From a virus: a stretch of 30,340 nucleotides of DNA. The notes beneath the pieces were generated by a model. It had not been told where the DNA came from, did no database searches, and saw only the letters and a program-made list of their open reading frames with translations. Below are positions 1 through 26,723 of the stretch, piece by piece. Position numbers and translations under genes: made by a program. Location of the stretch: positions 1-30,340 of the IMG/VR virus record IMGVR_UViG_3300028392_000220; one strand, given 5' to 3'. Within the stretch, counting starts at the first letter, position 1, and each line of letters opens with the position of its first letter.

Positions 1-1
1 T

Positions 2-2044
2 GTACATTGGAAACCAATACGTTTTGAATTTTCTAATATGTTTAGTTATGGTGAAAATAATACTATTGATTTTAAAAAAGTAAATGGTTTAATGGGTTTG
101 TTTGCACCAAATGCAGCAGGTAAATCTTCTTTATTTGATGCAATTTCGTTTTGCCTTTATGATAAATGTAGTAGAGCATTCCGAGCACAAAATATCTTAA
201 ATAATCGTAAGACAACATTTCATTGTCAATTGGATTTTCAAATAAATGGTATAGACTATCACATTTGTAGAGAGGCTCGTACAATTAACAAAGGTAAGAA
301 TGTTAAAGTTGATGTACAATTTTGGAAAACGGAAGGTGGTATCGTAGTTTCACTTAATGGAACGGAAAGACGTGATACTAATACTGCTATTGAACAATAT
401 GTTGGTACTTATGAGGATTTCATTCTAACTGCTTTAAGTCTACAAGGTAATAATGCACTATTTATTGATAAATCTCAATCAGAAAGAAAAGACCTTCTTG
501 CTCAATTTATGGGATTAAATGTATTTGATAAATTATATGAAGTAGCAACCGAAGATATTAAGGAAGTTAGTGTACTAATTAAAAACTTTAAGAGGACTGA
601 TTTTACGACTGAATTGGCTGATAAAGGTAATGAACTTAAATCCAAAAAGAGTGAATTAAAAGATTTACAAACTAAACTTGATGGGCTATCAAATGATAAG
701 AATACTATATTAGAAAATATACTAACTCTTACAAAAGAATTAGCGCCAATTGATTCTACATTAGATTTGAGTAAATTAGAAAAAAGTAAAACCGATATTG
801 AAGGTAATATCCTAAACATTCAAATTGAAAAAGTAAATAAGAAAAATAAAATTGGTGAGTTTGGTAATCTATTAGCGGAAATATCACAATCCATAGAAGA
901 AAAGAAAACCATTCATAACAGACCTATTGAAGATGCTAAACGCCAATGGGATGAATATAAATCAGAAATAAATACTACCGAGCATAAGATTGAGCTATTA
1001 GAACAATTACTTAATTCAAATCAGGAAAAACTTTCACATTTGGAAGCACATGAGTATGACCCAAATTGTACTTATTGTATGAACAATGTATTTGTTAAAG
1101 ATGCCATTGCTACAAAACAAAAAGTTAAAGAGCAAACCGAAGAACTATTAGAATTGGGTAATAAACAACAAACACTCATTCAGCAAGCAAGTTATATATC
1201 CGATGTTGAAGAACAATGGGATGAATTGGTTGAATCCAAATCAAAATATCAAAAGGGAATTGTAATCAAAGAAAAAGCAGAAGCAGAGCTAAAAGGTTTG
1301 GATACAAAAGAGGAATTGTTTAAAACTCAATTAGAAGCGGTTAAAGGTGATATTAAGCGATATAATGATAATGAGGATACGATAAAACGTAATAAAGAAA
1401 TTCAATCCGATATTAAGGAATTTGAAAACATAAAGAGTGGGATTGATAACTCAATAAGAGAATTAAATAAGAAGGTAACAACCTTAAATGGTACTATTGC
1501 TTCATTACAATCGTTTGTAGAGGGTATTAAGAATAAGATGATAGAAGTTAAGGAGTTAGAAGAGAAAGGGCGCCTATACAACTATTATTTAGATGCAGTT
1601 AAGCGTGATGGTATTCCTTATGAATTAATATCAAAGGCATTACCAGTTATACAAACAGAAGTTAATAATATATTAGCACAGGTTGTGGATTTTGGTTGTG
1701 TAATGGAGGTCGATGGTAAATCTATTAATGCAAAAATTGTATACGATGACCAAGAGTGGCCACTTGAAATGTGTAGTGGTATGGAGAAGTTTGTAAGCGG
1801 ACTTGCTATTAGAGTTGCACTAATCAATATATGCAATCTACCTCGACCAAACTTTCTTGTTATTGATGAGGGATTTGGTACATTGGATTCTGATAATCTT
1901 TCTTCGTTATTTATGATGATGCAATATCTTAAAACTCAATTTGATTTTATTTGGGTAATTTCACATTTAGAACAAATGCGTGATATCGTAGATGGTCTAA
2001 TTGAAATTAAAAAAATAGATGGCTTTAGTAAGATTGATTTTTAA
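2..2044 (+). CDS. 46: Recombination/repair ATPase subunit, gp46 (SbcC/Rad50)-like, 5' partial
   Basis: The large subunit of the Mre11/Rad50-type nuclease (T4 gp46, partner gp47) processes DNA ends for recombination-dependent replication. The first in-frame ATG is at 38, but the frame is open back to base 2 and encodes residues (VHWKPIRFEFSN) typical of this family's first strand, so the true start lies outside the window. Counting from the ATG at 38: Walker A GLFAPNAAGKS at about 20-30, long coiled-coil arms, zinc-hook CTYC at 344-347, ABC signature CSGMEKF near 580, Walker B FLVIDEGFGTLD with D610/E611, and a switch His in WVISHLEQ. All ATPase and hook motifs are intact, so the enzyme should be active. 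The partner nuclease gp47 would be expected just upstream. The next gene is structural, so a replication/late-gene border lies at about 2050. Confidence 0.93.
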   Translation, partial: VHWKPIRFEFSNMFSYGENNTIDFKKVNGLMGLFAPNAAGKSSLFDAISFCLYDKCSRAFRAQNILNNRKTTFHCQLDFQINGIDYHICREARTINKGKNVKVDVQFWKTEGGIVVSLNGTERRDTNTAIEQYVGTYEDFILTALSLQGNNALFIDKSQSERKDLLAQFMGLNVFDKLYEVATEDIKEVSVLIKNFKRTDFTTELADKGNELKSKKSELKDLQTKLDGLSNDKNTILENILTLTKELAPIDSTLDLSKLEKSKTDIEGNILNIQIEKVNKKNKIGEFGNLLAEISQSIEEKKTIHNRPIEDAKRQWDEYKSEINTTEHKIELLEQLLNSNQEKLSHLEAHEYDPNCTYCMNNVFVKDAIATKQKVKEQTEELLELGNKQQTLIQQASYISDVEEQWDELVESKSKYQKGIVIKEKAEAELKGLDTKEELFKTQLEAVKGDIKRYNDNEDTIKRNKEIQSDIKEFENIKSGIDNSIRELNKKVTTLNGTIASLQSFVEGIKNKMIEVKELEEKGRLYNYYLDAVKRDGIPYELISKALPVIQTEVNNILAQVVDFGCVMEVDGKSINAKIVYDDQEWPLEMCSGMEKFVSGLAIRVALINICNLPRPNFLVIDEGFGTLDSDNLSSLFMMMQYLKTQFDFIWVISHLEQMRDIVDGLIEIKKIDGFSKIDF

Positions 2045-6616: not shown

Positions 6617-9600
6617 ATGAATATAATAAGCGAAATCACTAAACCACTTGTTACGAAGACTGTCGTTATATACGCAGGTCGTTTTCAACCATTTCACAAA
6701 GGGCATTACGATGCTTATAAAAGACTTGTAAGTAAATTTGGACAAGATAGTGTATACATTGGCACTTCAAATGATACAAATGATTCTAAATCACCATTTA
6801 ATTTTAATGAAAAAAAGAAAATTGCTACAACTATGTTTGGCATCCCTTCTAATCATTTTGTACAAATAAGAAATCCATATAAACCAGTTGAAATATTGCA
6901 GCATTTCGATGGACAGACTACTCAATATATTGCTGCTGTTGGAGCAAAGGATGCGACACGTCTTCAAGGAAAATATTTCAAACCATATAACGGTAAGGCC
7001 GGTTATGGGTATAATGAGATAGGATATGTTTGGCCAGTACCAGCAGAATCAAATCCAATATCAGGAACAGATGTTCGTAATGGTCTTGGTGGCGATGAAG
7101 AAAGTGCTAAGAAGTTTTTCCTTAAAGCTTATCCAAAATTTAATAAACAAATATTTACAATGATTACTGATAAAATAAAATCATTGCATGAGGCAGCACC
7201 AATGGTTGGCGCTGGTGAGGCTGGAAGTTTTGGACTAAATCCAACTAGATATGATGATGATGATGTTACGGAAGATGGTTTTCCAGGTGGAGTGGGTGTA
7301 GGGCTTACATTACCCGGTGGATACATAAATGGTGCACCCAATCCAAAAGATGTAAAAAAATTAAGTAAAAAAATACATACTACGGATAGTAATAAAAAAT
7401 ATGTATATGACCCAATTAGTGAAATAATAGCTAACGCAGTCACAGAGGAAGCATTTAACGAATTTATAAGTAACTACTTAAATGAAGCTGAACCAAATAA
7501 AGCATTAGACCAGGATATTACATATAAAAATACAAAAGGTCAATCTAAAAAAATTAAAGCTAGAGATGCATTACGTTTACCAAAAGACCACCCTGCGCAT
7601 ATACAAGCTGCAAAAATAGCAGCTACTGCCGCACCAGCTGCTAAGACTGCCGGTAAACCGGATGTAAGTATACCTGGAAAGGTAGCAGGTTCTGTTGTTA
7701 AAAAGAGCGATGGTAAGCCTGATATAACAATTCCTGGTAAAGATGGTAAGCCAAAACAACAAGGTCCGCCGCCTCCACCACCAATGCCGCCAAAAAAATT
7801 AAGTGGAGCTGAATTAAAATCCAATGCTGAAATGGCACCTGGAGAAAAGGAAGCTTCTAAAAAGAATGACGAAATAAAAGCATCACTCGATCATGAAATG
7901 TCAAAACTATCAACTGATGATAAAAAATCGGTTGAAAGCGTAAATAACCCAGATTCTCCGGAAAGAAAGGATATGGCTGAAAAATCTAAAAGTTTTTTAT
8001 CAAAAGTTGGTAATAAATTATGGAGTGGCGCCAAACATTGGGCTAATGAGAAAAAAGAAATGTGTCAAGGAGTTGGTGCTGCAATAAAAACATTAGCTAC
8101 AGGCGGTAAACTTGGTAGTGTAAAGGATGCAAATGGTAAATATGTACACCATACGGATTTTAAAAATAAAACTGTACAAATCGACCCAAAGACAGCAAAG
8201 GAAAAAACAGTATGGGTAGATAAATCGGATTTAACGCCTGAAGAAAAGAAATTAAAACATAAATCCGAGCATGAGGAACATCACCAAAAGCATTCATTAA
8301 AACATGCTGCAAAAGATATTGCATTACTTGCCGCATCATTGGTTGCAGGAGCAGCTATTGGTGGAGCCGTTGGTGGTGGTATTGCTGCAGCAAAAGCTGG
8401 GGCTGCACACGGATTAGGACATGCGATTGGGCATGGCGCTGCGCATGGTGTAAGTGCAATTGCACACCACGGAGCAACAGGTATAGCCTCCCATGTTGGA
8501 AAGGATTTGATAAAACACTCTGCGTTTGAAGCTATGGGACTTAAAGGACACCACGCCGCTGGAGCAACTGCCGCAGTTGGTGCAATTGGTCATTTAATGG
8601 AAGGCGATGATAATAATGAGAATGATAATGATAAGAATGCAAAATTAGTGGATACATTACTAAAAAGGACTATGGAAGTAATGGCAACTTATAAAATGTC
8701 GGATGAGGAATTATTAAAATCTATTAAGAATTATAATAAAAATTCAGAAAAGAATACAGCAAAAGATATACTAAAAACAATTAATGAATCTGTAACATTA
8801 GAAAAAGCAAAGAATATACAAGATTTTGTTGATTACGCTTGTGAAAGACTTAAACTTAAAGATAAACCAAAAGTAAAATTATTATTAGATGGTGAATATT
8901 CCAATGCCGTATCTTCATTAGGTGGATATAGCCCGGTAACAAAAGATATATACGTTGTTGTGCCTGGTAGAATGACTGCCGATATATGTAGAACTATTGC
9001 ACATGAATTGGTACATAGAAAGCAAGATGAAATGGGGATGCTACGAACTGAAAATGATGGCGATACTGGTTCACCAATAGAAAATCAAGCAAACGCTGTA
9101 GCAGGAATACTATTAAGGGATTATGGTAAAAAGAATAAAGCAATTTATATGGAAAGCGTAAAATATATAAACGAAGTTAGCAACAATACTGGAGATGATG
9201 GTCAACCGGATGGTGGATATCTGCCAGCTGGGCACAGACGTACGCTTGGAGCAAATGATGGTGTGAATAAAGGTGATGATTGGTTTACCGGCGGAGGTTA
9301 CCTACAACTGGATTATCCAATAGCAGATGCAATATATGGTGCCGATGAAGAAAATATGTATACTGTAAAATATGTTGCTAGAAAATTAAGAAGGTCGATT
9401 GGTATAGATACTAAATTTGAAAAGAGTGAAGAAAAGGCAATAGATGTAACTCAAGACAAAAAAAATGGAAAATTAACAGATGAAACTAATAGTAAACGTA
9501 ATCTTACCGAAGTAAGTAAACGTGATATACATTTCAAAAATATATTCCAACATTATAGAGATGGCGATGCTAAAATGAAACAAAAAATAGCAGCAATAAT

Positions 9601-11665
9601 TACCGGAAATGCTTATGCAAAAATAAAAGAGATTCTAAAAGATATAATGGAAATGGGGCACAATGAGGTTGAAGAAATTGAAGACCAAATTGGAATATCA
9701 TTATCTGAAACTATTAAAAAAGTCGGTAGTAAATATATTGTATATCCAAAAAAAGGTGGTAAAAGATTAGGAACGCATAGCACATACAAATCGGCTAAAA
9801 AACAATTGGCAGCAATTGAAATTAATAAAGAAAGCTCAGAAGCTGATGGATATTATGGATCGGGAGCAAGCCGATGGGATGATGATACTCACTATAAAAA
9901 TGAAAATATTACTATCAATAATAAGCGTGCAAATACATTCCGCACAATTGAAGAAGCATTTGATAGTTTTTATGATAAAATGATTGAAGAAAATACATAT
10001 GAAATACCAACTATTAATGGTAAGCAAGCAATTACATTTAGAAAATTAGATGAAGCAAATGATATATTGGGCGCCATATCGCAAGATGGCGGCTCTACTA
10101 CCGTAAAAATGCCGTATTCAAAAAAATGGGAAGAATTTGATGATACGGCAGATAAATTATCAGATATTATTGGTTGGAAAAGATTACATCACCCAAGCGA
10201 TTCATATGAATATTATCGTAAAAATTTAGTAATCCCAACCTTTAATAGAAGTGAAGAAAATGGTAAAGGTAAACGTTGGATGCATCCAACTAAATCAAAA
10301 GAATATGCTGAGCATAAAAAAAGAACTTGGGAGGTTTGGCCATTTAATAATAGAGAAGAACCATACAATGAAGATCATGGTCAAGTTTATAAAATAAGAA
10401 GAAATGCATATGTTGAACCAACGATTATAAAATCAATAAAAGAAAATATAAATGAATCAAAACTTTTATTAGAAGGTGGAGCATATGGACACATGTCACA
10501 TCCATTTGATGATATGGATTTAACGTTTGGTGACCTTAAAAATATTATTAGTAAAGCATTAGATGGTGATTTAGGAGTAGTAAGAGAAAAAACCGATGGA
10601 CAGGCTTTGGCAATAAGTTGGAAAAACGGAAGATTGATTGCTGCAAGAAATAAAGGACATTTGCAAAACGCAGGAGCAAACGCAATGGGTATTGAAGAAG
10701 TTGCGGCTAAGTTTGCAGGACGTGGTGGACTAACAGATGCATACAACTTTGCAATGCGTGATTTATCTGCGGCAATTGCAGGATTGACAAAAGCTCAACG
10801 TGATAAAATATTCAATGAAGGCAAATGTTTTATGAATATTGAAGTAATATGGCCTACATCTGTAAATGTAATACCATATGGACAAGCATTATTAGTATTT
10901 CATAATACTACTTGCTATGATGTATCAGGTACAGCAATTAGTGGAGAGCAAACAACAGCAAGAATGTTGGCCGGAATGATTAAACAAATTAATGCAGATG
11001 TACAAAGTAAATACACAATACAAGGGCCACCAATTACCGAAATACCAAAGAATCAAAATTTAAGTTCTCTTAAACCAAAATATTTTTCAAAACTTTCTAA
11101 ATTACAAAATGAATTTGGATTAACCGATAATGATACTATTTCATTATATCATCAAAGTTGGTGGGAAAATTTTATAAATAAAAAAGCTCCAGTTAAGGTT
11201 GATAAAATGACAAAAGAAGCACTAGTTAGACGTTGGGCATTTGGTGATAAAACATTTAAGATTAATACAATATCAAACGCAGAATTGCAAAAATGGGCAT
11301 TAAATACTGATAAAGTTAATGTAGCAAAACAACAAAAAGATAATATCCGTCCATTTGAAGAAATATTTTTAGGAGTTGGAGCTGATATACTTTCATTTGT
11401 TGGGTCTGTATTAACTGTACATCCTGATAAGGCAATTCGTAATATGAAAGATAGATTAAAGGCAACCGCAGAACAAGTTAGAACCGCCGGAAGTCCTGCT
11501 CAAATACAAAAATTAAAAACCGAATTACAAAGATTAAATAATTTAGGCGGTATTGATAAGATAGTTGCATCCGAAGGATTGGTATTCTTTTATAATGGAA
11601 AAACTTATAAGCTTACTGGAACGTTTGCCCCGCTTAACCAAATTTTGGGAATTTTTTACGAATAA
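6617..11665 (+). CDS. 1682-aa multi-enzyme protein: NMNAT-like + zincin-like + nucleic-acid-ligase-like domains
   Basis: Domains in order. Residues 15-185 are an HxGH nucleotidylyltransferase of the NMNAT/NadM kind, with GRFQPFHKGH at 21-30 and ISGTDVR at 148-154. Residues 330-395 are Ala/Pro linkers with two GKPDxxIPGK repeats and a six-Pro run. Residues 545-660 are a Gly/Ala/His-rich, glycine-zipper-like segment. Residues 730-840 are a zincin-like peptidase with HELVH at 796-800 and ENQANAVA from 822 as a plausible third-ligand helix. Residues 1037-1070 are a small phage module (YPKKGGKRLGTH). Residues 1290-1682 resemble ATP-dependent DNA/RNA ligases: KTDG at 1325-1328 (motif I), ARNKG at 1343-1347, NIEVIWP at 1407-1413 (motif III), EGLVF at 1653-1657 (IV) and YKLTG at 1664-1668 (V). 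Sites fitting (L/I)xE|A/G occur after residues 192, 290, 662 and 1286, near domain borders. Its place among structural genes suggests virion cargo, which is inference. Confidence 0.75.
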   Translation: MNIISEITKPLVTKTVVIYAGRFQPFHKGHYDAYKRLVSKFGQDSVYIGTSNDTNDSKSPFNFNEKKKIATTMFGIPSNHFVQIRNPYKPVEILQHFDGQTTQYIAAVGAKDATRLQGKYFKPYNGKAGYGYNEIGYVWPVPAESNPISGTDVRNGLGGDEESAKKFFLKAYPKFNKQIFTMITDKIKSLHEAAPMVGAGEAGSFGLNPTRYDDDDVTEDGFPGGVGVGLTLPGGYINGAPNPKDVKKLSKKIHTTDSNKKYVYDPISEIIANAVTEEAFNEFISNYLNEAEPNKALDQDITYKNTKGQSKKIKARDALRLPKDHPAHIQAAKIAATAAPAAKTAGKPDVSIPGKVAGSVVKKSDGKPDITIPGKDGKPKQQGPPPPPPMPPKKLSGAELKSNAEMAPGEKEASKKNDEIKASLDHEMSKLSTDDKKSVESVNNPDSPERKDMAEKSKSFLSKVGNKLWSGAKHWANEKKEMCQGVGAAIKTLATGGKLGSVKDANGKYVHHTDFKNKTVQIDPKTAKEKTVWVDKSDLTPEEKKLKHKSEHEEHHQKHSLKHAAKDIALLAASLVAGAAIGGAVGGGIAAAKAGAAHGLGHAIGHGAAHGVSAIAHHGATGIASHVGKDLIKHSAFEAMGLKGHHAAGATAAVGAIGHLMEGDDNNENDNDKNAKLVDTLLKRTMEVMATYKMSDEELLKSIKNYNKNSEKNTAKDILKTINESVTLEKAKNIQDFVDYACERLKLKDKPKVKLLLDGEYSNAVSSLGGYSPVTKDIYVVVPGRMTADICRTIAHELVHRKQDEMGMLRTENDGDTGSPIENQANAVAGILLRDYGKKNKAIYMESVKYINEVSNNTGDDGQPDGGYLPAGHRRTLGANDGVNKGDDWFTGGGYLQLDYPIADAIYGADEENMYTVKYVARKLRRSIGIDTKFEKSEEKAIDVTQDKKNGKLTDETNSKRNLTEVSKRDIHFKNIFQHYRDGDAKMKQKIAAIITGNAYAKIKEILKDIMEMGHNEVEEIEDQIGISLSETIKKVGSKYIVYPKKGGKRLGTHSTYKSAKKQLAAIEINKESSEADGYYGSGASRWDDDTHYKNENITINNKRANTFRTIEEAFDSFYDKMIEENTYEIPTINGKQAITFRKLDEANDILGAISQDGGSTTVKMPYSKKWEEFDDTADKLSDIIGWKRLHHPSDSYEYYRKNLVIPTFNRSEENGKGKRWMHPTKSKEYAEHKKRTWEVWPFNNREEPYNEDHGQVYKIRRNAYVEPTIIKSIKENINESKLLLEGGAYGHMSHPFDDMDLTFGDLKNIISKALDGDLGVVREKTDGQALAISWKNGRLIAARNKGHLQNAGANAMGIEEVAAKFAGRGGLTDAYNFAMRDLSAAIAGLTKAQRDKIFNEGKCFMNIEVIWPTSVNVIPYGQALLVFHNTTCYDVSGTAISGEQTTARMLAGMIKQINADVQSKYTIQGPPITEIPKNQNLSSLKPKYFSKLSKLQNEFGLTDNDTISLYHQSWWENFINKKAPVKVDKMTKEALVRRWAFGDKTFKINTISNAELQKWALNTDKVNVAKQQKDNIRPFEEIFLGVGADILSFVGSVLTVHPDKAIRNMKDRLKATAEQVRTAGSPAQIQKLKTELQRLNNLGGIDKIVASEGLVFFYNGKTYKLTGTFAPLNQILGIFYE

Positions 11666-13282: not shown

Positions 13283-14890
13283 ATGTCAGTACAATCGCAA
13301 CCGAAAAAAACATTAAAAGAAATTATAGCAGATGAATATCGTAAATGTGGATTAGACCCAGTTTACTTTATGAAAAAATACTGTGTTATCCAACACCCGA
13401 CTCGTGGTAAAATACCATTTCACTTATATCCTTTTCAAGAGGATTGTATGATTGATTTTAAAAATAATCGTTTTAATATTATTCTTAAATCACGTCAACT
13501 TGGACTTTCAACACTTTCCGCTGGATACATTCTTTGGAAAATGCTATTCAATCAGGACTTCAATGCGCTTGTTATCGCAACAAAAGTAACGGTAGCAAAA
13601 AACTTAGTTGAAAAAGTAAGAGTTATGCACGACCTTTTACCGATATGGTTGCGGGATGGTGGTAATAGCTCGGTTGAAGATAATAAACTATCACTCAAAT
13701 TAAAGAATGGTTCACAATGTAAAGCAATTGCATCTTCACCTGATGCAGGACGTTCTGAAGCACTATCGCTATTAGTTGTTGATGAAGCGGCATTTATTCG
13801 TGATATCGATGAAATCTGGCTATCGGCACAATCAACATTATCTACCGGTGGTTCGGCAATTGTATTATCTACGCCAAATGGTGTGGGTAATTGGTTTCAT
13901 AAAATGTGGGTAGATGGTGAGAGTGGTGCAAATGGATTTCACAATATCAAACTACATTGGACGGTACATCCGGAAAGAAAGCAAGATTGGAGAGATGACC
14001 AAACTCGTATTTTAGGAATTAAAGGCGCAGCACAAGAATGTGATTGTGATTTTGTAAGTTCAGGTGATACGGTAATCGACCCACATCTACTAATGTGGTA
14101 CAAAGATACATATGTAACCGACCCTGTCGAAAAACGTGGATTTGATGGAAACTTATGGGTATGGGAACATCCAAACTATAATCGTCAATATATGGTTGTA
14201 GCTGACGTTGCTCGTGGCGATGGCTCCGATTATTCTACTGCTCAAATAATTGATATAGAAGATAGCTCGCAAGTAGCAGAATATCGTGGCAAGATTGAAA
14301 CAAAAGATTTTGGAAACTTTTTAACAGCAGTGGCAACCGAGTATAATAATGCGCTATTAGTTGTGGAAAACTCAAATGTAGGTTGGGCAACGATTCAGCA
14401 AATTATAGATAGGGGATATGGTAATTTATTTTATATGAGTAATGACCTTAAATATATTGATGTTGAAAGGCAGATGAGCAATAAGTTTTACAGAGATGAA
14501 AGGCAAATGGTTGCTGGGTTTTCTACTACATCGAAGACTAGACCACTTATTATATCATCATTGGATTCATATATACAAAACAAAGATATTCTAATACGTT
14601 CAGTAAGACTAATAGATGAATTATTTACATTTATTTGGAATGGTGGTAGAGCGGAAGCTATGAAAGGATATAACGATGACCTTACTATGGCATTAGCAAT
14701 CGGACTATGGGTAAGAAATACGGCATTAAGACTTAAACAAGAAGGGGTTGATTTGACAAAGAATATATTAAACGCATCGCATGTAGCAAAGTATGATAGT
14801 GTCTATACTATAAATGGATTAAAATCAAATCCATATCAAATGGATGTTGGAAATGGTGAACAATCGAGCTTGACTTGGTTATTGGGTTAA
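13283..14890 (+). CDS. 17: Terminase large subunit (gp17-like)
   Basis: The motor ATPase and headful nuclease that pumps DNA into the prohead through the portal. The 535 residues compare with 610 in T4. The ATPase half has Walker A KSRQLGLST at 69-77, Walker B LLVVDEAAF with D167/E168 and a coupling motif LSTPNG at 195-200. The RNase-H-like nuclease half has the acidic residues D308 (VVADVARGDGSD), E362 (LLVVENSN) and D465/D466 (GYNDDLTMALAIG). All catalytic positions are present, so it should be functional. It starts seven bases after the preceding membrane-protein gene. The portal is encoded two genes downstream. Confidence 0.95.
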   Translation: MSVQSQPKKTLKEIIADEYRKCGLDPVYFMKKYCVIQHPTRGKIPFHLYPFQEDCMIDFKNNRFNIILKSRQLGLSTLSAGYILWKMLFNQDFNALVIATKVTVAKNLVEKVRVMHDLLPIWLRDGGNSSVEDNKLSLKLKNGSQCKAIASSPDAGRSEALSLLVVDEAAFIRDIDEIWLSAQSTLSTGGSAIVLSTPNGVGNWFHKMWVDGESGANGFHNIKLHWTVHPERKQDWRDDQTRILGIKGAAQECDCDFVSSGDTVIDPHLLMWYKDTYVTDPVEKRGFDGNLWVWEHPNYNRQYMVVADVARGDGSDYSTAQIIDIEDSSQVAEYRGKIETKDFGNFLTAVATEYNNALLVVENSNVGWATIQQIIDRGYGNLFYMSNDLKYIDVERQMSNKFYRDERQMVAGFSTTSKTRPLIISSLDSYIQNKDILIRSVRLIDELFTFIWNGGRAEAMKGYNDDLTMALAIGLWVRNTALRLKQEGVDLTKNILNASHVAKYDSVYTINGLKSNPYQMDVGNGEQSSLTWLLG

Positions 14891-14928: not shown

Positions 14929-16116
14929 ATGATAAAGCTAAGAGATATGCTAAATAAAGTAGGTGGGCCCACACCAAAACCACATTCTTCTACGCAAACA
15001 CAAAATGAAGATTTAAACAAATGGTTTAAAGAAAAATGGGTAAATATAGGAAAAAAAGTAAATGGTAAACATCCACCATGTGGCACTTCCGGTAAAAAAA
15101 GTGGTTATGCAAAATGTGTTCCTGCAGCTAAAGCAGCTGGAATGAGTAAAAAAGAAAAGGAAAGTGCCACTAGAAGAAAACGAGCAGCACAAAACGCAGC
15201 AGATAGAGGTGGTAAGAATAGTAATGGACAAGGAAAGACTCCGATATATGTTTCTACTAAAACAAAAAATGAAGGATGGAGTCAAAAATATAAAAATAGT
15301 ATAAATTGTAATAATCCAAAAGGTTTCTCTCAAAAAGCACATTGCAAAGGAAAGAAAAAAAATGAAACTATGAATATTGAAGAAAGACTAAACCTCTTTT
15401 TAGAGAAGAATTGCCCAACTGATAAAGCAAAGTGGGCAGCATCTAAGGTAGCAGCTAAATCTAAATTCGATGTATACCCGTCAGCATACGCAAATGGATG
15501 GGCAGCAAAGAACTATAAAGGTAAAGGCGGTGGTTGGCGAAGTTGTAGTGAATCCGTAGTAAATGAAGATTGTTGGGATGGATATAAAAATGTAGGTGGA
15601 AAAATGAAAAATGGTAAAATGGTGCCAAATTGTGTTCCTATAAATGAAGAAACCGCTGAACTTAATTGCGATGAAAACGGAAATTGTTGGGAATTAGAAC
15701 CACCAAGATATCCAAGCGATTCAATGGCAAATAGAACTATGGAAGAAGAAATCGATGAATATGATGTAGAAACCATAGAAGAAGAAAAATCTTTTATAAA
15801 ATTTATGAGAGAATATAATCAATTACTATCTGAAGCAACTTGCCCATGTTTATTGGAAGCTGAGTATCAAGGACGTAACGTAAAGCTTGGTAAAATAATG
15901 CAAGGAGATATTAAAAAATTCAAAGTATATGTTAAGAACGATAAAGGAAATGTTGTTAAAGTAAATTTTGGATTTGGTGGTAGTTCGGCCGGCGGAAAAA
16001 GAATGGTAATTAAGAAAAATAATCCTGCAAGAAGAAAATCATTTAGAGCAAGAATGAATTGTGATAGTCCCGGTCCAAGATGGAAAGCAAGATATTGGGC
16101 ATGTCGTACTTGGTAA
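14929..16116 (+). CDS. Mosaic of basic Cys-containing phage modules (DUF5872-like), likely capsid cargo
   Basis: A 395-residue, Lys-rich protein made of separate short modules I recognise from other T4-like phages. They are: a DUF5872-like unit at about 28-113 (KWFKEKWVNIGKK...CGTSGKKSGYAKC); NCNNPKGFSQKAHCKG at 126-141; CPTDKAKW...DVYPSAYANGWAAKNY at 162-196; DCWDGYKNVGGKMKNGK at 214-230; and a very basic C-terminal unit at 325-395 (ARRKSFRARMNC, PRWKARYWACRTW). Before the last unit lie two fits to the prohead-protease pattern, LSE302|A303 and LLE310|A311, preceded by a hydrophobic helix (FIKFMREYNQLL). Charge and processing sites suggest DNA-associated internal head peptides released by cleavage. 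The names of the modules are from memory; packaging and cleavage are inference. Confidence 0.7.
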   Translation: MIKLRDMLNKVGGPTPKPHSSTQTQNEDLNKWFKEKWVNIGKKVNGKHPPCGTSGKKSGYAKCVPAAKAAGMSKKEKESATRRKRAAQNAADRGGKNSNGQGKTPIYVSTKTKNEGWSQKYKNSINCNNPKGFSQKAHCKGKKKNETMNIEERLNLFLEKNCPTDKAKWAASKVAAKSKFDVYPSAYANGWAAKNYKGKGGGWRSCSESVVNEDCWDGYKNVGGKMKNGKMVPNCVPINEETAELNCDENGNCWELEPPRYPSDSMANRTMEEEIDEYDVETIEEEKSFIKFMREYNQLLSEATCPCLLEAEYQGRNVKLGKIMQGDIKKFKVYVKNDKGNVVKVNFGFGGSSAGGKRMVIKKNNPARRKSFRARMNCDSPGPRWKARYWACRTW

Positions 16117-16156: not shown

Positions 16157-17875
16157 ATGGCAGATAAATCAATATATAGTAGGTTACAAAAACTATTTTC
16201 AACCAATACGATAGTTCGTAAAACTCCTAAAGGTACAAAGGTAATTGATACCGATGAGTATCAAAATATGACTACAAACCTTGTGGATAGGTTTATGAAA
16301 CTAAAGGTTACAAACTATTCCACAGGTCAAATTGACTCATCACTAGCATATCAGCAAGTTAGAATAGATCTTTTCAGAGATTATGATTCAATGGACCAAG
16401 ACCCGATATTATCATCTGCATTAGATATTTTTGCAGACGAATGCACGGCTCGTAATGAAACCGGACAAGTATTAAAAATACATCATGATGATCATAATGT
16501 AAAGCAAATCCTTGAAAATCTTTTTTATGATATCCTTAATGTAGAGTTTAATCTTTGGCCATGGACTAGAAATCTTGTAAAATATGGAGATTTCTTTCTA
16601 CAATTGGAAATGTCTGAAGGTGTTGGTATTGTAAATGTTTATCCATATTCGCCTTATGAAATAAGTCGTGTTGAAAACTTTGACCCTAAAAATCCACAAA
16701 GAGTTAAATTTGTATACGCACCATATCAAAATCCATTAGGAGCATATGGGCAAACTACAAAAAAAGAATTTGAAAATTACGAAATAGCTCACTTCCGTCT
16801 AAATTCAGATTCAAACTTTTTACCATATGGTAAAGCAATGATTGAAGGCGGCCGCCGTGTTTGGAAACAAATACAATTAATGGAAGATGCAATGATATTG
16901 CATAAAATAATGAGAGCGCCTGAAAAACGTATTTTTAAAATTGATGTTGGTAATATACCGCCTACCGAAGTTGATAACTACATCCAAAAAATTATAAACA
17001 ACTCTAAAAAAGTTCCATTTGTAGATGAAAGGACTGGTGACTATAATCTTAAATTCAATGTTCAAAATATGATTGAAGATTATTATTTACCTGTACGTGG
17101 TAGTGATAATGGCACTTCAATAGATACTTTAAAAGGATTGGAGTATAGTATGATTGATGAACTTAACTATCTTAAAAATAAGTTAATGGCATCTCTTAAA
17201 ATTCCAAAGGCATATATGGGGTATGAGGAAGATACCGGTGGTAAAGCAACATTGGCATCTTTAGATATAAGATTTGCAAAAACAATAGAAAGAATACAGC
17301 GTGTATTGGTTTCCGAATTGACTAAAATAGCTATCATACATTTATACTCACAAGGTATTGATGATGAAAGATTGACAGAATTTAGTCTTGAACTTACACT
17401 TCCTTCAAAAATATATGAACAAGAGCAAGTTGAATTATATAAATCTAAAGTTGAATTAATAAGCTCAATGCAGAATACAAAAATGTTTTCAAAAGAATGG
17501 ATGTATCATTCTATTATGAAGATGGCTAAAGATGAACAAGATGAGCAGACACTTGCTATATTAGAAGATGTTAAGCAAGCATTTAGATTGACTTCAATTG
17601 AAACGCAAGGTGTAGACCCTGCGGCTCAAACCGAAGAACAACCAACTAATGTAGAGGAAGAAATAAAAAAGATAAAAACGGAATTAGAAGAAGATGGTAA
17701 AGTAGGTAGACCAAAAGATACGGTACGATATGGTAAAGATGACCATCCATTAGGACGTGACCCACTTGGTATTAAGAAATTAAAACAAAAAGAAGGTAGC
17801 GTTAAATTCAAACCTCGTAACAATTATCAAGAGATATTTAAGGATATGGATGGTAATAAAAAAATTGTTTTATAA
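16157..17875 (+). CDS. 20: Portal protein (gp20-like)
   Basis: The dodecameric ring at one head vertex through which DNA enters and leaves, and on which the prohead core is built. At 572 residues it is close to T4 gp20 (524). Family features are the early segment YDSMDQDPILSSALDIFADE, the wing/stem region with GDFFLQLEM and YPYSPYEISRVENF, HFRLNSDSNFLPYGKAMIEG, and the helical stem LKNKLMASLKIPKAYMGYEE followed by RFAKTIERIQRVL. The C-terminal about 60 residues are charged and contain an acidic/basic tail (EEEIKKIKTELEEDGK). It starts 40 bases after a cargo-like gene and is followed by a 136-base AT-rich gap. Confidence 0.9.
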   Translation: MADKSIYSRLQKLFSTNTIVRKTPKGTKVIDTDEYQNMTTNLVDRFMKLKVTNYSTGQIDSSLAYQQVRIDLFRDYDSMDQDPILSSALDIFADECTARNETGQVLKIHHDDHNVKQILENLFYDILNVEFNLWPWTRNLVKYGDFFLQLEMSEGVGIVNVYPYSPYEISRVENFDPKNPQRVKFVYAPYQNPLGAYGQTTKKEFENYEIAHFRLNSDSNFLPYGKAMIEGGRRVWKQIQLMEDAMILHKIMRAPEKRIFKIDVGNIPPTEVDNYIQKIINNSKKVPFVDERTGDYNLKFNVQNMIEDYYLPVRGSDNGTSIDTLKGLEYSMIDELNYLKNKLMASLKIPKAYMGYEEDTGGKATLASLDIRFAKTIERIQRVLVSELTKIAIIHLYSQGIDDERLTEFSLELTLPSKIYEQEQVELYKSKVELISSMQNTKMFSKEWMYHSIMKMAKDEQDEQTLAILEDVKQAFRLTSIETQGVDPAAQTEEQPTNVEEEIKKIKTELEEDGKVGRPKDTVRYGKDDHPLGRDPLGIKKLKQKEGSVKFKPRNNYQEIFKDMDGNKKIVL

Positions 17876-19740: not shown

Positions 19741-20357
19741 TGAATTTAACGGAATTAGAAAATATTGTTGAGGAAATTGTAAGAGAAGAGATGGAGTATC
19801 AACAGCTCTTCAAAGCCATGCTAAAGGCAACTGGTAAAAATATTCCTACAATGAGTGATACGGAGAAGAAGAAGTTTTTTAATGCCGTAGATAAAGCATA
19901 TAAAGCTAAGACAGAAGGTAGGCTAACTGGGTATAAAGAAAATATGGATGAAGGTTTCATATCCGGATTAATATCATTAATGACAGTGGCAATAATTGGT
20001 AAAGTAATTTTTTACTATTTTATACAATTAGTAGATAAGGGTATGAAATACTTTTCTTCTGATGATAAAAAATTAGAAGTAGTTGTTAAGAAAATATTAA
20101 AAGAGTTATCGGATAATAAATCGTTCATAGATGATGTTACCAATATGATTAATAAAAACAAAGGAATTGATCAAGTAACAGCCAACAAGATTTTAAAAAT
20201 GGGATATACTCAAGACCTAATTAAGAAATATACCGCAAAGGGTGATATTGATAAGAACAAACTTGAGAATGAATTAAAAACCATATTTTTTAAATCTTGG
20301 GAAGATTCAAATGTTGTATCAACAATAACCGATAAAATTAAAAATGATATTAAATAA
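19740..20357 (+). CDS. Head-region protein with FKAML...FFNAVDKAY module and a membrane segment
   Basis: A 205-residue protein. Residues 1-18 form an acidic amphipathic helix (MNLTELENIVEEIVREEM). Residues 19-60 are a small module widespread in phage proteins (YQQLFKAMLKATGK ... SDTEKKKFFNAVDKAY). Residues about 73-98 (GFISGLISLMTVAIIGKVIF and on) are hydrophobic enough to cross or insert into a membrane. The remainder is a Lys-rich helical domain. A membrane segment in a head-cluster protein next to the prohead protease suggests either an ejected protein acting on the host membrane or a membrane-linked assembly factor. It is coupled to both neighbours by one-base TAATG overlaps. Confidence 0.65.
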   Translation: MNLTELENIVEEIVREEMEYQQLFKAMLKATGKNIPTMSDTEKKKFFNAVDKAYKAKTEGRLTGYKENMDEGFISGLISLMTVAIIGKVIFYYFIQLVDKGMKYFSSDDKKLEVVVKKILKELSDNKSFIDDVTNMINKNKGIDQVTANKILKMGYTQDLIKKYTAKGDIDKNKLENELKTIFFKSWEDSNVVSTITDKIKNDIK

Positions 20358-20947
20358 TGAATAAAGGACTCTTAATAGAAACACATTTATTTGAAGCAAA
20401 AATACAAGAGGAAGATAATGGAACTTTCCTTGTTAAAGGTATCCTACAAAGAGCTGGAGCCCCAAATCAAAATAAACGTAGATATCCAAAGGAAATTCTT
20501 AAAAGAGAATGTGATAAGTATCAACAACTTATTAAAGAAAGACGTGCTTTGGGAGAACTTGACCATCCAGATTCACCTGTAATCAATCTTAAAAATGTTT
20601 CACATAATATTAGAGAAATCTATTGGGAAGGCGATGATGTATGTGGTGTAGTAGAAATATTATCAACACCATCTGGAAATATACTAAGAGAACTTCTAAA
20701 AAATAATATTCGTTTAGGAATTAGTAGTAGAGGTTTGGGTTCTGTAAAAGAAATGAACGATGGAACGGTTATGGTTCAGGAAGATTTTGAAATTATAGGT
20801 TGGGATTTCGTTTCAAACCCATCAACGCATGGTGCATTTATGGCGCCAATGAATGAAAGTAAGCAATGGCAGAAAATCGCAGATGAATGTGGTAAATGGT
20901 GTCGCTCACATGACTTAATGCGAGAAATTCTTATCGAATTAAATTAA
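20357..20947 (+). CDS. 21: Prohead maturation protease (gp21-like)
   Basis: A serine protease of the herpesvirus-assemblin/HK97-protease fold that degrades the scaffold and trims capsid proteins before DNA packaging. The 196 residues compare with 212 in T4. Visible family features are KGILQRAGAPNQNKRRYPKE at 27-46, the catalytic His in GELDHPDSP (H70), the catalytic Ser in RLGISSRGLGS (S123 or S124), and IIGWDFVSNPSTHGAFM at 147-163 with D150 a candidate third residue. The N-terminus holds LFE13|A14, a match to its own LxE cleavage pattern, so self-processing is likely. It overlaps the preceding gene by one base and stands among its predicted substrates. Confidence 0.92.
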   Translation: MNKGLLIETHLFEAKIQEEDNGTFLVKGILQRAGAPNQNKRRYPKEILKRECDKYQQLIKERRALGELDHPDSPVINLKNVSHNIREIYWEGDDVCGVVEILSTPSGNILRELLKNNIRLGISSRGLGSVKEMNDGTVMVQEDFEIIGWDFVSNPSTHGAFMAPMNESKQWQKIADECGKWCRSHDLMREILIELN

Positions 20948-22097: not shown

Positions 22098-22586
22098 ATG
22101 ATACGTTTAAAAGATATACTAAAAGAAACCGAAGAATACCAACAAATGCCAAAAGAATTAAAAAAGCATTTTTTGGAAATTATATCTACATATGGGCATC
22201 ATAGAGAGGGTATGAATCGAAAATCGGATATTCGTAGTATAGCAGAGACACTGGGTGCAATCGCTGATGCGGCTCAGGAGTACACTCTACATGAAGCAGG
22301 TGATTGGTTTGATAGGGTTACAATTAAACGTAATATGGGCGAGCTAAAGAACTTACAAAAGAAATTTGAGAAAGAGGCAATTGAAGCAAAAAGCCAAGAG
22401 GAAAGACTTGAGGCACTTTACGAAGATATGGGACATGTTTTAGGACGTTACTTTGAAATCGCAGAAATAAGTGAGCAAGAAATGCAACAAAGACTTGGAC
22501 TTAAAGGTAATCAGAGTAAAATTGATATGAATAAGAACGGAAAGATTGACTCACAAGATTTTAAAATATTGAGAAAACAAAAATAA
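22098..22586 (+). CDS. Helical head-region protein with C-terminal EF-hand-like calcium loop
   Basis: A 162-residue protein. The start (MIRLKDILKETEEYQQM) is an amphipathic helix like those on other cargo-like proteins here. Residues 25-122 match a helical phage module I recognise without a function (GMNRKSDIRSIAETLGAIAD, ERLEALYEDMGHVLGRYFEI). Residues 143-154 (DMNKNGKIDSQD) form a complete EF-hand loop, with D143, N145, N147, K149 (main-chain), D151 and D154 at positions 1, 3, 5, 7, 9 and 12, followed by FKILRKQK as in dockerin-type repeats. A single loop may bind Ca2+ only on pairing. The 64-base gap upstream has no TATATTTATA motif and no gene. Confidence 0.65.
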   Translation: MIRLKDILKETEEYQQMPKELKKHFLEIISTYGHHREGMNRKSDIRSIAETLGAIADAAQEYTLHEAGDWFDRVTIKRNMGELKNLQKKFEKEAIEAKSQEERLEALYEDMGHVLGRYFEIAEISEQEMQQRLGLKGNQSKIDMNKNGKIDSQDFKILRKQK

Positions 22587-22591
22587 ATAAA

Positions 22592-22963
22592 ATGGAACAA
22601 TTAGCATCATTATTTTTTCACAGCAGAACACAAGCGCATGTATTCCACTTAGGAGTTAAAGGACCTGGAGCATATGCAGCACATGTGGCATTACAAGCGT
22701 ACTATGACGAAATAATAGGATTAGTAGATGGATTAGTAGAATCGTATCAGGGCAAATACGGACTTATTAAATTTCAACCAGTTAATGGTTTAGATACTAA
22801 TTGTGATATTGAAAATATAATTAAGTATTTTGAAAAATTATGTGGAGCACTTGAAAAGATAAGAACCGATAAAAAATTACAAGATACTTGGATTCAAAAT
22901 CAAATAGACAACATTTCGGAATTATTATATTCAACAAAATATAAGTTAGTAAATTTACAATAA
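22592..22963 (+). CDS. Ferritin/Dps-like protein (DUF5856-like) with intact ferroxidase ligand spacing
   Basis: A 123-residue helical protein whose first half reads HSRTQAHVFHLGVKGPG, then AAHVALQAYYDE and GLVDGLVE. The residues H19, H31, D46 and E50 are separated by 12, 15 and 4 positions, the same spacing as the ferroxidase ligands of Dps (H31, H43, D58, E62 in Listeria Dps). The G-x-x-x-x-x-H and Y-D-E context also matches. Dps proteins oxidise Fe(II) with peroxide and shield DNA. This one is short (Dps is about 150-170 residues), so the fourth helix may be reduced. It follows the EF-hand protein by five bases and precedes a terminator and the scaffold gene. The family number is from memory; the metal-site match is read directly. 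Confidence 0.7.
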   Translation: MEQLASLFFHSRTQAHVFHLGVKGPGAYAAHVALQAYYDEIIGLVDGLVESYQGKYGLIKFQPVNGLDTNCDIENIIKYFEKLCGALEKIRTDKKLQDTWIQNQIDNISELLYSTKYKLVNLQ

Positions 22964-22980
22964 GATACACCCTACATATA

Positions 22981-23030
22981 AATTAAAAGCTTAGAAATAA
23001 TACCAATTTTTAAGCTTTTAATTTATTTTT
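22981..23030 (+). terminator. Long AT-rich stem-loop followed by a T-run
   Basis: Arms 22981-22997 and 23007-23023 pair over 17 positions (one G-U), with a perfect core AAAAGCTTA/TAAGCTTTT and a nine-base loop. TTTATTTTTTTAT follows. It lies 17 bases after the Dps-like gene and would end the head-cargo transcript before the scaffold and capsid genes. Confidence 0.7.
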
Positions 23031-23048: not shown

Positions 23049-23077
23049 ATCCCATCTCATATGGGATTATATTTTTT
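23049..23077 (+). other. Perfect hairpin ATCCCAT-loop-ATGGGAT with T-run
   Basis: Arms 23049-23055 and 23061-23067 pair perfectly over seven bases around a CTCAT loop, followed by TATATTTTTT. This could be a second intrinsic terminator in tandem with the one at 22981. If the element at 23032 is a promoter, it would instead be a protective 5' hairpin on the scaffold/capsid messenger. Confidence 0.5.
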
Positions 23078-23189: not shown

Positions 23190-24413
23190 ATGGCAAATTC
23201 AAAATTATTGAAAGAAGCAATCGCTGATGCCAAAGCCGTTAAAGAAACTGCTTTAGCAAACGCAAAACTCGCTCTTGAAGAAGCATTTACTCCAAGACTA
23301 CAATCTATCTTATCTCAAAAGATGAGACAAGAAGCAGAAATGGAAGATGATGACACTGAACAAGTAGATGAGGAATTAGATTCATCTGACATTGGAACAA
23401 AGGTAGGTCAAGACAAAGCTGATACTCCTGCAAAACAACCAACATTAGATGCTGATACTGAATTAGCACCGGGTATGAAAAAATCCACTGCTAAAAGAGG
23501 TCTTGAAGATCCAAACAGAACAATCGTAGACACTCTCATGGAAGATGAAATGGGAATGGAAGATGAAAAGGATCAAGAAATCGCTGAATTACGTGCTCGT
23601 TTAGCAGAGCTTGAAGGAGATGATGAAACTCCTGAAGGCGATGAAAATTATGGCATGGAAGATGAAGGCGATGATATGGGTATGGATTCTGACGAAGACG
23701 GTGAAGATTATGATGTTACCGGCGACGAAGATGAGGATACCGAAGAAGATGACATGGACTTAGAATCTATCATTCGTGAATTAGAAGCTCAACTTGGAGA
23801 CGAGGAAGGCGATAAAGAAGAAGAAGATGAAAGTTCAATGTATGAGGATTATGCAGACGGTTCTGATGCCGGAACTGATAAATCCGAAGATCCTAAAGTA
23901 GTAACAAACGAAGATGAAGAAGAAAAGGATGATGTAATCGACTTAGAAGAAATTCTTCGTGAAATGGAAGCTGACTTAAAAGATGAAGAGGAAATGAAAA
24001 ACCCAGCTGAAGCTGAAAAAGATGGAGCTCTTACAGCTGAGTTAAAACAAGCTTACAGCACAATCAAATCGTTACAAGGAACAATCAATGAAGTTAATTT
24101 ACTTAACGCTAAATTATTGTTCGCAAACAAATTATTCAGAGCACATAACATGACTAACGAACAAAAAGTTAAAGTTATCGAAACTTTGGATAGAACAAAA
24201 TCGGTTAGAGAAGTTAAATTGGTTTACTCTACATTAGCAGAGAATTTCAAATATGTACCATCTAACAAAACTGTTAAAAAAGCAATCTCTGAAGGATTCG
24301 CAGCTAGCAAAATAGTTAAATCAACTAAACCAGCTGTAGCACAAAAACAAGTAATAAATGAAAGTGCTGTGATTTCTGATAGATTTAAAAAATTAGCAGG
24401 TATTATTAAATAA
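23190..24413 (+). CDS. 22: Prohead core scaffold protein (gp22-like)
   Basis: The internal core around which the capsid shell assembles and which gp21 then digests. It has 407 residues (269 in T4). An N-terminal Ala-rich helix contains LKE9|A10 and LEE31|A32, plausible cleavage sites. The centre (about 50-275) is strongly acidic, with runs of Asp/Glu and two related units, MDLESIIRELEAQL from 189 and IDLEEILREMEADL from 250. The conserved scaffold segment is near 300-350 (NLLNAKLLFANKLFRAHN, VREVKLVYSTLAENF), and the end is SDRFKKLAGIIK. Directly upstream of the capsid gene (22 bases), as in T4. It uses more C-ending codons than its neighbours, suggesting high expression. Confidence 0.88.
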   Translation: MANSKLLKEAIADAKAVKETALANAKLALEEAFTPRLQSILSQKMRQEAEMEDDDTEQVDEELDSSDIGTKVGQDKADTPAKQPTLDADTELAPGMKKSTAKRGLEDPNRTIVDTLMEDEMGMEDEKDQEIAELRARLAELEGDDETPEGDENYGMEDEGDDMGMDSDEDGEDYDVTGDEDEDTEEDDMDLESIIRELEAQLGDEEGDKEEEDESSMYEDYADGSDAGTDKSEDPKVVTNEDEEEKDDVIDLEEILREMEADLKDEEEMKNPAEAEKDGALTAELKQAYSTIKSLQGTINEVNLLNAKLLFANKLFRAHNMTNEQKVKVIETLDRTKSVREVKLVYSTLAENFKYVPSNKTVKKAISEGFAASKIVKSTKPAVAQKQVINESAVISDRFKKLAGIIK

Positions 24414-24435: not shown

Positions 24436-26070
24436 ATGAACTTAACAAAATTAATGACAGGTGCTAACCCACAAAGCATTATGCTTGAACAAACTAGAGG
24501 TTTGAAAGCAAAGTGGGAAAGAACTGGTTTACTTGAAGGAGTAGGCGCAGAATCAACTAAGCATGGTATGGCAGTAATGCTTGAAAACCAAGCTAAACAA
24601 TTACTTGATGAGGCTACCCGTACAGGTACAGCAGCAGGTTCAGAAGAATGGGCAGGTGTAGCTCTTCCGTTAGTAAGACGTATCTTTGGTAGCATTGCTG
24701 CAAAAGAGTTCGTTTCAGTACAACCGATGAACTTACCTTCTGGTCTTATTTTCTATATGGATTTCAAATATAGTACAGCAACAGCACAAAACCAACCAGC
24801 TTCTGGTTCTTCTTTGTATGGTGCAGGCGGTGCATTTGGACAAGATTCATTAAACGCATCTGGTAACAAACTTGGATCAACACAAGATACAACTGGTGGT
24901 TTATATGGAGCTGGTCGTTTTGGATATACTGTTAATGACCAAACTACAACAGGTATTACGGCTACATTATTGACTGCATCTTTAGCAGATATTGCGTTTG
25001 ATTTAACAAACACAACTTTATCTTCTTCTGTAGCAGCAGGTACGGCTAGAAAAATGACTGTATTAACAAGTACTTTAACTAATCCAGACCTTAATGCTGT
25101 TAGAACATTCTCAATATCTGGTTCAGGTACAAACTTTGCATACTATCCGCAGTTTACCGCAACTAGTGGTTCAGGCGCTGGTACGGCTATCGTTTTCCTT
25201 GCAACAGGTGTAACTGCAACTGGTACGCAAACTGTAGGTGTATCTTTCAATGCACAACCTACCGCTGCAAACCGTGGTGATTTTGAAGATAGAACAGGCG
25301 CTGATATTGTTATTCCAGAAATTGAATTGGAATTAAAATCAGAACCAATCGTTGCTAAAACTCGTAAGTTAAAAGCAATTTGGACTCCTGAACTTGCACA
25401 AGATTTGAACGCATATCACTCAATTGACGCTGAAGCTGAATTAACTCAAATGTTAAGTGAGTACATCTCTTTGGAAATCGACTTAGAAATCCTTGAAATG
25501 TTACAATTAAACGCTTTAACAGTTGATTATTGGTCTGCTCGTGTTGGATACGATTACAACTCTTCTACCACCTCTTTCGCAGTTGATACTAACGCAGTTC
25601 AAGCATCGGCTTATAACAAATCAACATGGTTCCAGACTTTGGGTATTAAATTACAAAAAGTTTCTAACAAAATTCACCAATTAACAATGCGTGGTGGAGC
25701 AAACTTCATAGTTGCATCTCCAAACGTATGTACAATTCTTGAATCAATGAACGGATTTGCATCTAACCCTGGTAAAGATGCTCTTCAATTCGCAGCAGGT
25801 GTATCACAAATTGGTGCAATCTCTAATCGTTTTGATGTTTATAAGAACCCGTATATGACGGAAAACGTTATCTTATTAGGCTTTAAAGGAAGTAACTTCT
25901 TTGAAACAGGTGCTGTATATGCTCCATATGTTCCATTGATTATGACTCCTTTAGTGTACGACCCAACTAACTTCACTCCTAGACGTGGAGTTATGACTCG
26001 TTACGCTAAGAAGATAGTTAGACCCGAATTTTACGGTAAAATCGTAATCGAAGGTTTGAACACTCTTTAA
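24436..26070 (+). CDS. 23: Major capsid protein (gp23-like)
   Basis: The HK97-fold shell subunit, 544 residues (521 in T4 gp23). Family landmarks are an N-terminal KAKWERTGLLEGVG (compare KWKPLLEGEG in T4), PLVRRIFGSIAAKEFVSVQP, then MNLPSGLIFYMDFKYS, RKLKAIWTPELAQDLNAYHS, DAEAELTQMLSEYISLEIDL, GGANFIVASPNV and a C-terminal GVMTRYAKKIVRPEFYGKI. Residues about 150-270 hold a Thr/Ser/Gly-rich insertion-domain-like stretch. LDE59|A60 matches the T4 maturation site (E65|A66) in position and sequence, so the mature protein probably begins at A60; LLE34|G35 is another possible cut. A-rich leader, no Shine-Dalgarno. A strong terminator follows the gene. Confidence 0.95.
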   Translation: MNLTKLMTGANPQSIMLEQTRGLKAKWERTGLLEGVGAESTKHGMAVMLENQAKQLLDEATRTGTAAGSEEWAGVALPLVRRIFGSIAAKEFVSVQPMNLPSGLIFYMDFKYSTATAQNQPASGSSLYGAGGAFGQDSLNASGNKLGSTQDTTGGLYGAGRFGYTVNDQTTTGITATLLTASLADIAFDLTNTTLSSSVAAGTARKMTVLTSTLTNPDLNAVRTFSISGSGTNFAYYPQFTATSGSGAGTAIVFLATGVTATGTQTVGVSFNAQPTAANRGDFEDRTGADIVIPEIELELKSEPIVAKTRKLKAIWTPELAQDLNAYHSIDAEAELTQMLSEYISLEIDLEILEMLQLNALTVDYWSARVGYDYNSSTTSFAVDTNAVQASAYNKSTWFQTLGIKLQKVSNKIHQLTMRGGANFIVASPNVCTILESMNGFASNPGKDALQFAAGVSQIGAISNRFDVYKNPYMTENVILLGFKGSNFFETGAVYAPYVPLIMTPLVYDPTNFTPRRGVMTRYAKKIVRPEFYGKIVIEGLNTL

Positions 26071-26165: not shown

Positions 26166-26723
26166 ATGGATATTATATACAAACTCACATCGCCAAAAGG
26201 TAAAGTTTACATTGGTAGGACGAATGATTTTCAAACAAGATTGAATCAACATAAGCATAATGCTATGATTAATAGAAAATCAAATTCTTTATATAGAGCA
26301 ATTCGTAAATATGGTTGGGATAATTTTAAAAAAGAAATACTATGCGAAGTTGATGCCGATATTTCTCAAAAAATAGAAGAAGAATTGATAATCGCATATA
26401 ATTCAGTAAAAACTGGGTATAATGATACATACGCCGGTGGGGGTGGTAATTTATGGAAAGATAGAAAAGATACGAATGAGTATACGGAATTTGTTGAAAA
26501 AATGAAAAAAATAAATCAATCAAATAGAATGCATGGCAAAACTCATTCAGATAATACAAAGGAACTACAAAAAGAAAAAGCAAAGGGTAGATACTCATTA
26601 GATTGGTTTATAGATAGGAATGGCGATACCGAAGGAACCCGATTATACGAAGAAAGGCGCCAGTGGTTAAAGAACAGAAACTTATTAAAAGATGCTAATG
26701 GAAGATTTATAAGTAGTTCTTAA
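26166..26723 (+). CDS. Free-standing GIY-YIG homing endonuclease
   Basis: A 185-residue enzyme that would cut a specific DNA site and spread by repair. The GIY-YIG domain covers residues 1-90: IYKLTSPKGKVYIG holds both motif halves (I4-Y5 and Y15-I16-G17), with catalytic Arg R25 in TRLNQHK and Glu in the KIEEELI helix (E71-E73). Residues about 120-135 (NRMHGKTHSDNTKEL) resemble a NUMOD3 DNA-binding repeat. The C-terminus (YSLDWFIDRNGDTEGTRLYE) is another module found in phage homing enzymes. It stands alone between the capsid terminator and the neck genes, with its own promoter-like motif. The flanking capsid and neck genes are intact and there is no sign of an intron. Confidence 0.88.
   Translation: MDIIYKLTSPKGKVYIGRTNDFQTRLNQHKHNAMINRKSNSLYRAIRKYGWDNFKKEILCEVDADISQKIEEELIIAYNSVKTGYNDTYAGGGGNLWKDRKDTNEYTEFVEKMKKINQSNRMHGKTHSDNTKELQKEKAKGRYSLDWFIDRNGDTEGTRLYEERRQWLKNRNLLKDANGRFISSS

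Follow-up and report, generated by a model that had tools for sequence, protein, structure and literature searches.

Dps proteins, among them HP-NAP, MrgA and those of S. aureus and E. coli, are four-helix bundles that carry the signature HxxH...H...Y...D...E, with ferroxidase ligands spaced 12, 15 and 4 residues apart and ferroxidase half-sites that meet across a two-fold axis. They assemble into a dodecameric cage and oxidise Fe(II) with peroxide. A basic DNA-binding tail is present in some of them only. The four ligands are H31, H43, D58 and E62 in the Listeria protein and H51, H63, D78 and E82 in that of E. coli, with Listeria D47 and E. coli D67 as the fifth. Phages too carry members of the ferritin superfamily: some gut phages encode a full-length Dps or a manganese catalase, proposed to counter oxidative stress, in a text that names DPS and not DUF5856 (Benler et al, 2021; PMC8008677). 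DUF5856, the family of T4 RI.-1, was not found by name in the literature that we searched. Its proteins have so far been labelled 'hypothetical' or 'starvation-inducible transcriptional regulator', which is uninformative; the second, the RefSeq label for T4-type RI.-1 proteins, is silent on iron. Nor, apparently, has RI.-1 been tied explicitly to an intact Dps-type ferroxidase site in the limited literature searched.

The gene described here lies in a T4-like head and tail gene cluster that makes up the window, by which we mean the whole 30,340-nucleotide stretch of viral DNA that was analysed (IMG/VR record IMGVR_UViG_3300028392_000220; Table 1). The N-terminus of its product reads MEQLASLFFHSRTQAHVFHLGVKGPGAYAAHVALQAYYDEIIGLVDGLVESYQG, and the strand opposite the open reading frame is packed with stops. 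The protein matched DUF5856 (PF19174) at 59.5 bits (E 7.1e-16; Pfam curated cut-off 34.6) and phrog_858 at E 5.7e-18. DUF5856 was also matched by every one of 85 aligned members and by T4 RI.-1 itself (NP_049716.1; 114.5 bits, E 5e-33), and RB49 RI.-1 falls in the same family. Homology to the T4 and RB49 proteins extends over the full length and includes the four ligands, most members being 117-140 aa long. The Pfam Ferritin family (PF00210) gave no match to the window protein or in a search across the window, and reached E<=1 in just 11 of the 85 aligned members. Weak Pfam/NCBIfam matches to NPC1_MLD and PriX were dismissed as noise, and 14-3-3 matches in the PDB sequence search as helical background.

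Table 1. Features of the locus (window coordinates; Dps residue equivalences as given in the text)
Feature	Position	Strand	Remark
Terminase	13283-14890		
Portal	16157-17875		
Prohead protease, gp21 type	20357..20947	+	phrog_207, E 7.1e-53
Upstream neighbour, 162 aa	22098..22586	+	function unassigned
Minimal Dps-like protein, 123 aa (DUF5856 / phrog_858 / T4 RI.-1 family), predicted	22592..22963	+	family matches, model, fold
Codon H16 (part of HxxH motif; outside the textbook set of Dps ligands)	22637..22639	+	one exception among relatives
Codon H19 (Listeria Dps H31, E. coli H51)	22646..22648	+	invariant
Codon H31 (Listeria H43, E. coli H63)	22682..22684	+	invariant
Codon Q35 (place of fifth Dps ligand)	22694..22696	+	not conserved
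Codon D46 (Listeria D58, E. coli D78)	22727..22729	+	invariant
Codon E50 (Listeria E62, E. coli E82)	22739..22741	+	invariant
A+T-rich hairpin (21 pairs, loop 7), then T run	22978..23026	+	-19.3 kcal/mol, z -7.5
Second terminator-like site	23049-23067		
Putative scaffold/core protein	23190..24413	+	judged by location and acidic composition
Major capsid protein, T4 gp23 type	24436..26070	+	PF07068, E 5e-76

The family is widespread in phages. A tblastn search with RB49 RI.-1 matched 1398 of 50,697 phage records, and relatives of the window protein number in the hundreds in environmental viral contigs. Since no part of the alignment A1 was conserved well enough to scan genomes with, the window protein alone was run against 84,980 bacterial and archaeal genomes and gave one match, on a 5.2-kb contig carrying phage tail genes. 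Among 395 genomes of the matched phylum, the DUF5856 cut-off was passed by two proteins only, the scan match and one other, and those sub-threshold matches in bacterial genomes that were checked proved to be true Dps. The second of the two (L378:1489-1869, minus strand) is a 127-aa bacterial-genome protein that has the four ligands and, where Dps carries the fifth, an aspartate, which puts it midway between Dps and DUF5856. At another locus (L092:4001-4385) two open frames that overlap make up the rI.-1 homologue, owing to a frameshift or a sequencing error.

The first-pass annotation had pointed to four residues of the protein, H19, H31, D46 and E50, as the equivalents of the Dps ligands. Their spacing of 12, 15 and 4 is indeed exact in the translation, and the sequence context quoted around them is present. 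The correspondence with the E. coli ligands agrees with the structural alignment, in which VIA-align placed residues 33..166 of E. coli Dps (1dps) on 1..123 of the predicted model, an offset of 32, with a Z-score of 13.6. The fifth Dps ligand, an acidic residue four positions after the second histidine that the first-pass annotation left out, is absent, the window protein having Q35. Relatives mostly have G at this position, and also N, Q, E or A; T4 RI.-1 has D.

Conservation singled out the same residues. Among 53 representatives below 65% identity, only 6 of the 123 columns were invariant, namely H16, H19, H31, Y38, D46 and E50; had invariant columns fallen anywhere, the chance that four of the six would be the ligands named beforehand is 1.7e-6. 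In all the relatives fetched (about 370, from very different phages), H19, H31, Y38, D46 and E50 are the same throughout and H16 in all but one; T4 RI.-1, with F in place of Y38, keeps H16 and the four ligands. Because the loci had been seeded by short peptides, search bias was controlled for with 139 relatives whose sequences contain none of the ligand-covering search peptides; the ligand pattern was present in 138, the exception being a fragment ended by the end of its contig. In a tree of 57 proteins, the Straboviridae/Ackermannviridae, window-type, huge-phage and several small-phage clades lie apart, indicating that the ligands survived deep divergence. The gene is under purifying selection, with dN/dS against close relatives of 0.07-0.19.

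The predicted structure points the same way. An AlphaFold2 model of the window protein (pLDDT 97.6, pTM 0.90) is a four-helix bundle with helices at 2-21, 27-56, 73-90 and 99-121. Nearly all of the top 50 VIA-align matches were Dps, the best with a Z-score of 14.1 over 121 of 123 residues at 2.3 A, and Foldseek against the PDB also ranked Dps top (probability about 1.0, TM up to 0.80). Modelling of a relative from an RB49-like phage, 98% identical to RB49 RI.-1, again gave a Dps-like structure (Z 14.6), with YciE/YciF ferritin-like proteins tying with Dps. For a helical bundle, Z-scores of 13-14 could, taken alone, reflect nothing beyond a shared fold, and a coincidental likeness between Dps and an unrelated protein of four helices might be argued from the weak Foldseek E-values (0.014 at best) and from the 11-20% sequence identity to solved Dps. 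Against this, phmmer found Dps 2d5k as the best solved relative (E 1.8e-4), a profile search found HP-NAP (E 8.8e-5), and hhalign of the family profile with three Bacteroidota Dps gave a probability of 83% and an E-value of 9e-6 with the ligands aligned. Together with the invariance of the ligands, these sequence matches refute chance for practical purposes. In BFVD the model also matched small proteins encoded by giant viruses that infect eukaryotes (A0A481ZC29 of Pithovirus LCPAC404 and A0A7D3V608 of Fadolivirus; TM about 0.8), in which a similar Dps-like fold may therefore be present.

Kinship within the superfamily appears to be with Dps specifically. Canonical ferritins such as FtnA share the superfamily fold, but the window protein lacks their intrasubunit carboxylate/ExxH di-iron site, as helices C and D carry no conserved E or ExxH. 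The ferritin sequences first fetched as Dps controls turned out to be canonical ferritins and were used as a negative control; hhalign of the family profile against these six gave a probability of 0.9%. Identity as a canonical ferritin or bacterioferritin was rejected on both counts. The protein also differs from Dps. The model has no short BC helix, which in Dps lies at the two-fold interface (residues 57 to 72 are without helix), a basic N- or C-terminal tail is missing (helix A begins at residue 2 and the net charge is -2.2), and the chain is about 25-45 residues shorter. The description of the 123-residue protein as a minimal form, also made in the first-pass annotation, holds, and family, fold and conservation agree that this phage encodes a Dps-type member of the ferritin-like proteins whose four ferroxidase ligands are intact. 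As judged from sequence and model, it is a minimal Dps-like variant and not a textbook Dps, and very probably possesses a Dps-type di-iron site.

How such a site could form is suggested by the model. H31 and D46, 15 residues apart on one helix, are separated by about 22 A, so that the four ligands cannot form one site within a monomer. Because of this distance, and because both half-sites are invariant together, we favour the same dimer as that formed by Dps; the inter-subunit logic of the ligands would then be alike, as read here from the sequence and a single-chain model. We infer the following scheme for the dimer, its chemistry and its benefit to the phage. The protein, a ferritin-like member of the T4 RI.-1 (DUF5856) family derived from Dps by shortening, would pack two chains in Dps fashion, with the H19/H31 pair of each chain opposite the D46/E50 pair of its partner, giving two shared iron sites per dimer. 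These sites would bind and oxidise Fe(II), probably with hydrogen peroxide. In the late phase of infection, levels of free iron and of peroxide would thereby fall, and hydroxyl radicals would do less harm to the DNA and proteins of the phage. Since the fifth ligand and the BC helix are gone, catalysis and cage assembly may differ from those of Dps.

A Dps-fold protein could, on the other hand, use the site for another metal (Zn, Mn) or for structure only, without ferroxidase activity. The loss of the fifth ligand would fit this, as would the consideration that ligand conservation alone names no metal, but the four ligands are the exact iron set and hardly any core position is as well conserved as they are, and we regard this reading as rather unlikely. 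A predicted peroxide/iron ferroxidase acting in the infected cell is the reading that we prefer, with a probability of roughly 0.68. It provides a concrete biochemical hypothesis for a protein of T4 and of well over a thousand sequenced phages, and if true would make the control of iron and peroxide a common need of lytic infection. An iron/peroxide function is plausible for what, from its sequence and predicted fold, is a real and well-conserved minimal Dps-like variant.

The genetic data on the family concern T4 rI.-1 only, and bear on lysis timing. In PMC6832632, rI.-1 is placed in one operon with the antiholin gene rI, and its over-expression is reported to make lysis inhibition slightly longer (Golec et al, 2010, as cited there). 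This raises the possibility that the Dps-type site signals, as a redox or iron sensor or regulator that tunes, for example, lysis timing, instead of carrying out bulk detoxification; the minimal size and missing BC helix, which make a storage cage uncertain, would suit such a role. However, most family members, that of the window included, do not adjoin rI, and RaK2 has an RI.-1 homologue while lacking the T holin, RI, RI.1 and RIII (PMC3622015). Moreover, the invariant positions are ligands of catalytic type. We therefore consider a sensor unlikely. Since the T4 homologue has intact ligands, the ferroxidase hypothesis is testable in a standard laboratory phage, in which one could also ask whether redox chemistry underlies the effect of rI.-1 on lysis inhibition.

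We then considered whether the protein acts in the head or in the cell. The gene does lie among head genes, as first annotated, between the prohead protease and the putative scaffold and 5 bases past the preceding gene. The window clade adjoins head genes whereas the RI.-1 genes of T4 and RB49 adjoin rI; in other clades the neighbours are portal or terminase, tail, endolysin or RusA genes, or rI. Placement between protease and scaffold recurs in 37 of 80 close relatives and some head gene is found in the flanking sequence examined of 51, but 29 have none there, and some of these genes lie beside DnaB helicase, ribonucleotide reductase or thymidylate synthase. The head-gene neighbourhood is thus common, not fixed.

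Such a neighbourhood would be expected of a ferroxidase that travels in the capsid, shields the DNA packed there and enters the cell together with it on injection, and the N-termini of some relatives lend this idea further weight. The T4, RB49 and huge-phage members have an N-terminal extension that the window clade lacks. The T4 internal proteins begin MKTFKEF (ipI) or MKTYQEF (ipII/ipIII), and capsid-targeting information in T4 resides mainly in residues 4 and 7 (PMC9026906). Resembling starts are found in T4 RI.-1 (MKFSDF), Lw1 (MQTFNEITE) and Slopekvirus (MQSFKQITE), likewise in RB49, and in many huge-phage members (MKKFSDF, MKRFSEI, MKSFNEY). Counted over distinct proteins, they occur in 7 of 8 from Straboviridae and 12 of 29 from huge phages (19/37 together), compared with 1 of 212 other ORFs from the same loci. 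Since the motif was formalised after being noticed in some of these sequences, and sequences within a clade are related and not independent, the targeting N-termini are a lead, not proof. In the window's own clade none of 52 distinct proteins has such a start, the window protein beginning MEQLASLFF. Support from virion proteomics for a head location was not found in a limited literature check. With these N-termini absent from the window's clade and no head gene in the flank of 29 of the 80 close relatives, head packaging seems doubtful as a general account. For this phage, the proposal that the protein guards packaged DNA is not supported, as there is neither a targeting-like N-terminus nor a basic tail and some close relatives have the gene beside replication and nucleotide genes; carriage in its head is quite improbable, and the protein of this phage most probably works as a free protein inside the infected cell. 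A scheme joining the two, in which DUF5856 proteins including T4 RI.-1 would be phage-specialised minimal ferroxidases, loaded into the head by a capsid-targeting sequence and injected in T4-like and huge phages so that the virion carries a shield against iron and peroxide, with the tag-less window clade acting in the cell, can be offered only tentatively, although the N-terminus of some of those relatives does suggest head loading.

Several further observations concern head targeting. The MKxFxEF-like starts of DUF5856 proteins from Straboviridae (L082, L087-L091, L173, L177, L373) and huge phages (L179-L214) are often followed by an acidic, E-rich linker and then the Dps-like core. In BFVD, three uncultured-phage proteins labelled 'prohead protease' (A0A6J7WPK9, A0A6J7XDU5 and A0A6J7WIS1) have a stretch matching the Dps-like fold. 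This hints that domains of head proteins and of Dps-like proteins may have been fused, which would also favour head packaging. Two otherwise unrelated proteins of the window, of 395 aa (start at 14929-14953) and 162 aa (start at 22098-22122), have a common N-terminus, MI[KR]L[KR]D[MI]L, which is not present in the Dps-like protein and may be a head-targeting tag peculiar to this phage.

The 162-aa protein is encoded directly upstream of the Dps-like gene, which it adjoins in many close relatives. The gap between its stop and the Dps-like ATG is 5 bases, which makes co-transcription probable. Directly 3' of the Dps-like gene, the strong hairpin with its T run is a possible transcription terminator. 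Given this hairpin and the short gap, the Dps-like gene is probably the final one on the transcript that covers the prohead protease region, with the putative scaffold and capsid genes lying beyond it. A family search with the scaffold/core candidate gave no match. Immediately after the capsid gene is a GIY-YIG-type homing-endonuclease-like ORF (26166-26723), placed in the same way in two other loci (L003, L021). Finally, positions 6617-11665 encode a 1682-aa protein in which a cytidylyltransferase-like domain (PF01467, E 4e-7) at the N-terminus is accompanied by two motifs, HELVH, resembling that of metalloproteases, and EKTDGQ, resembling that of ligases.
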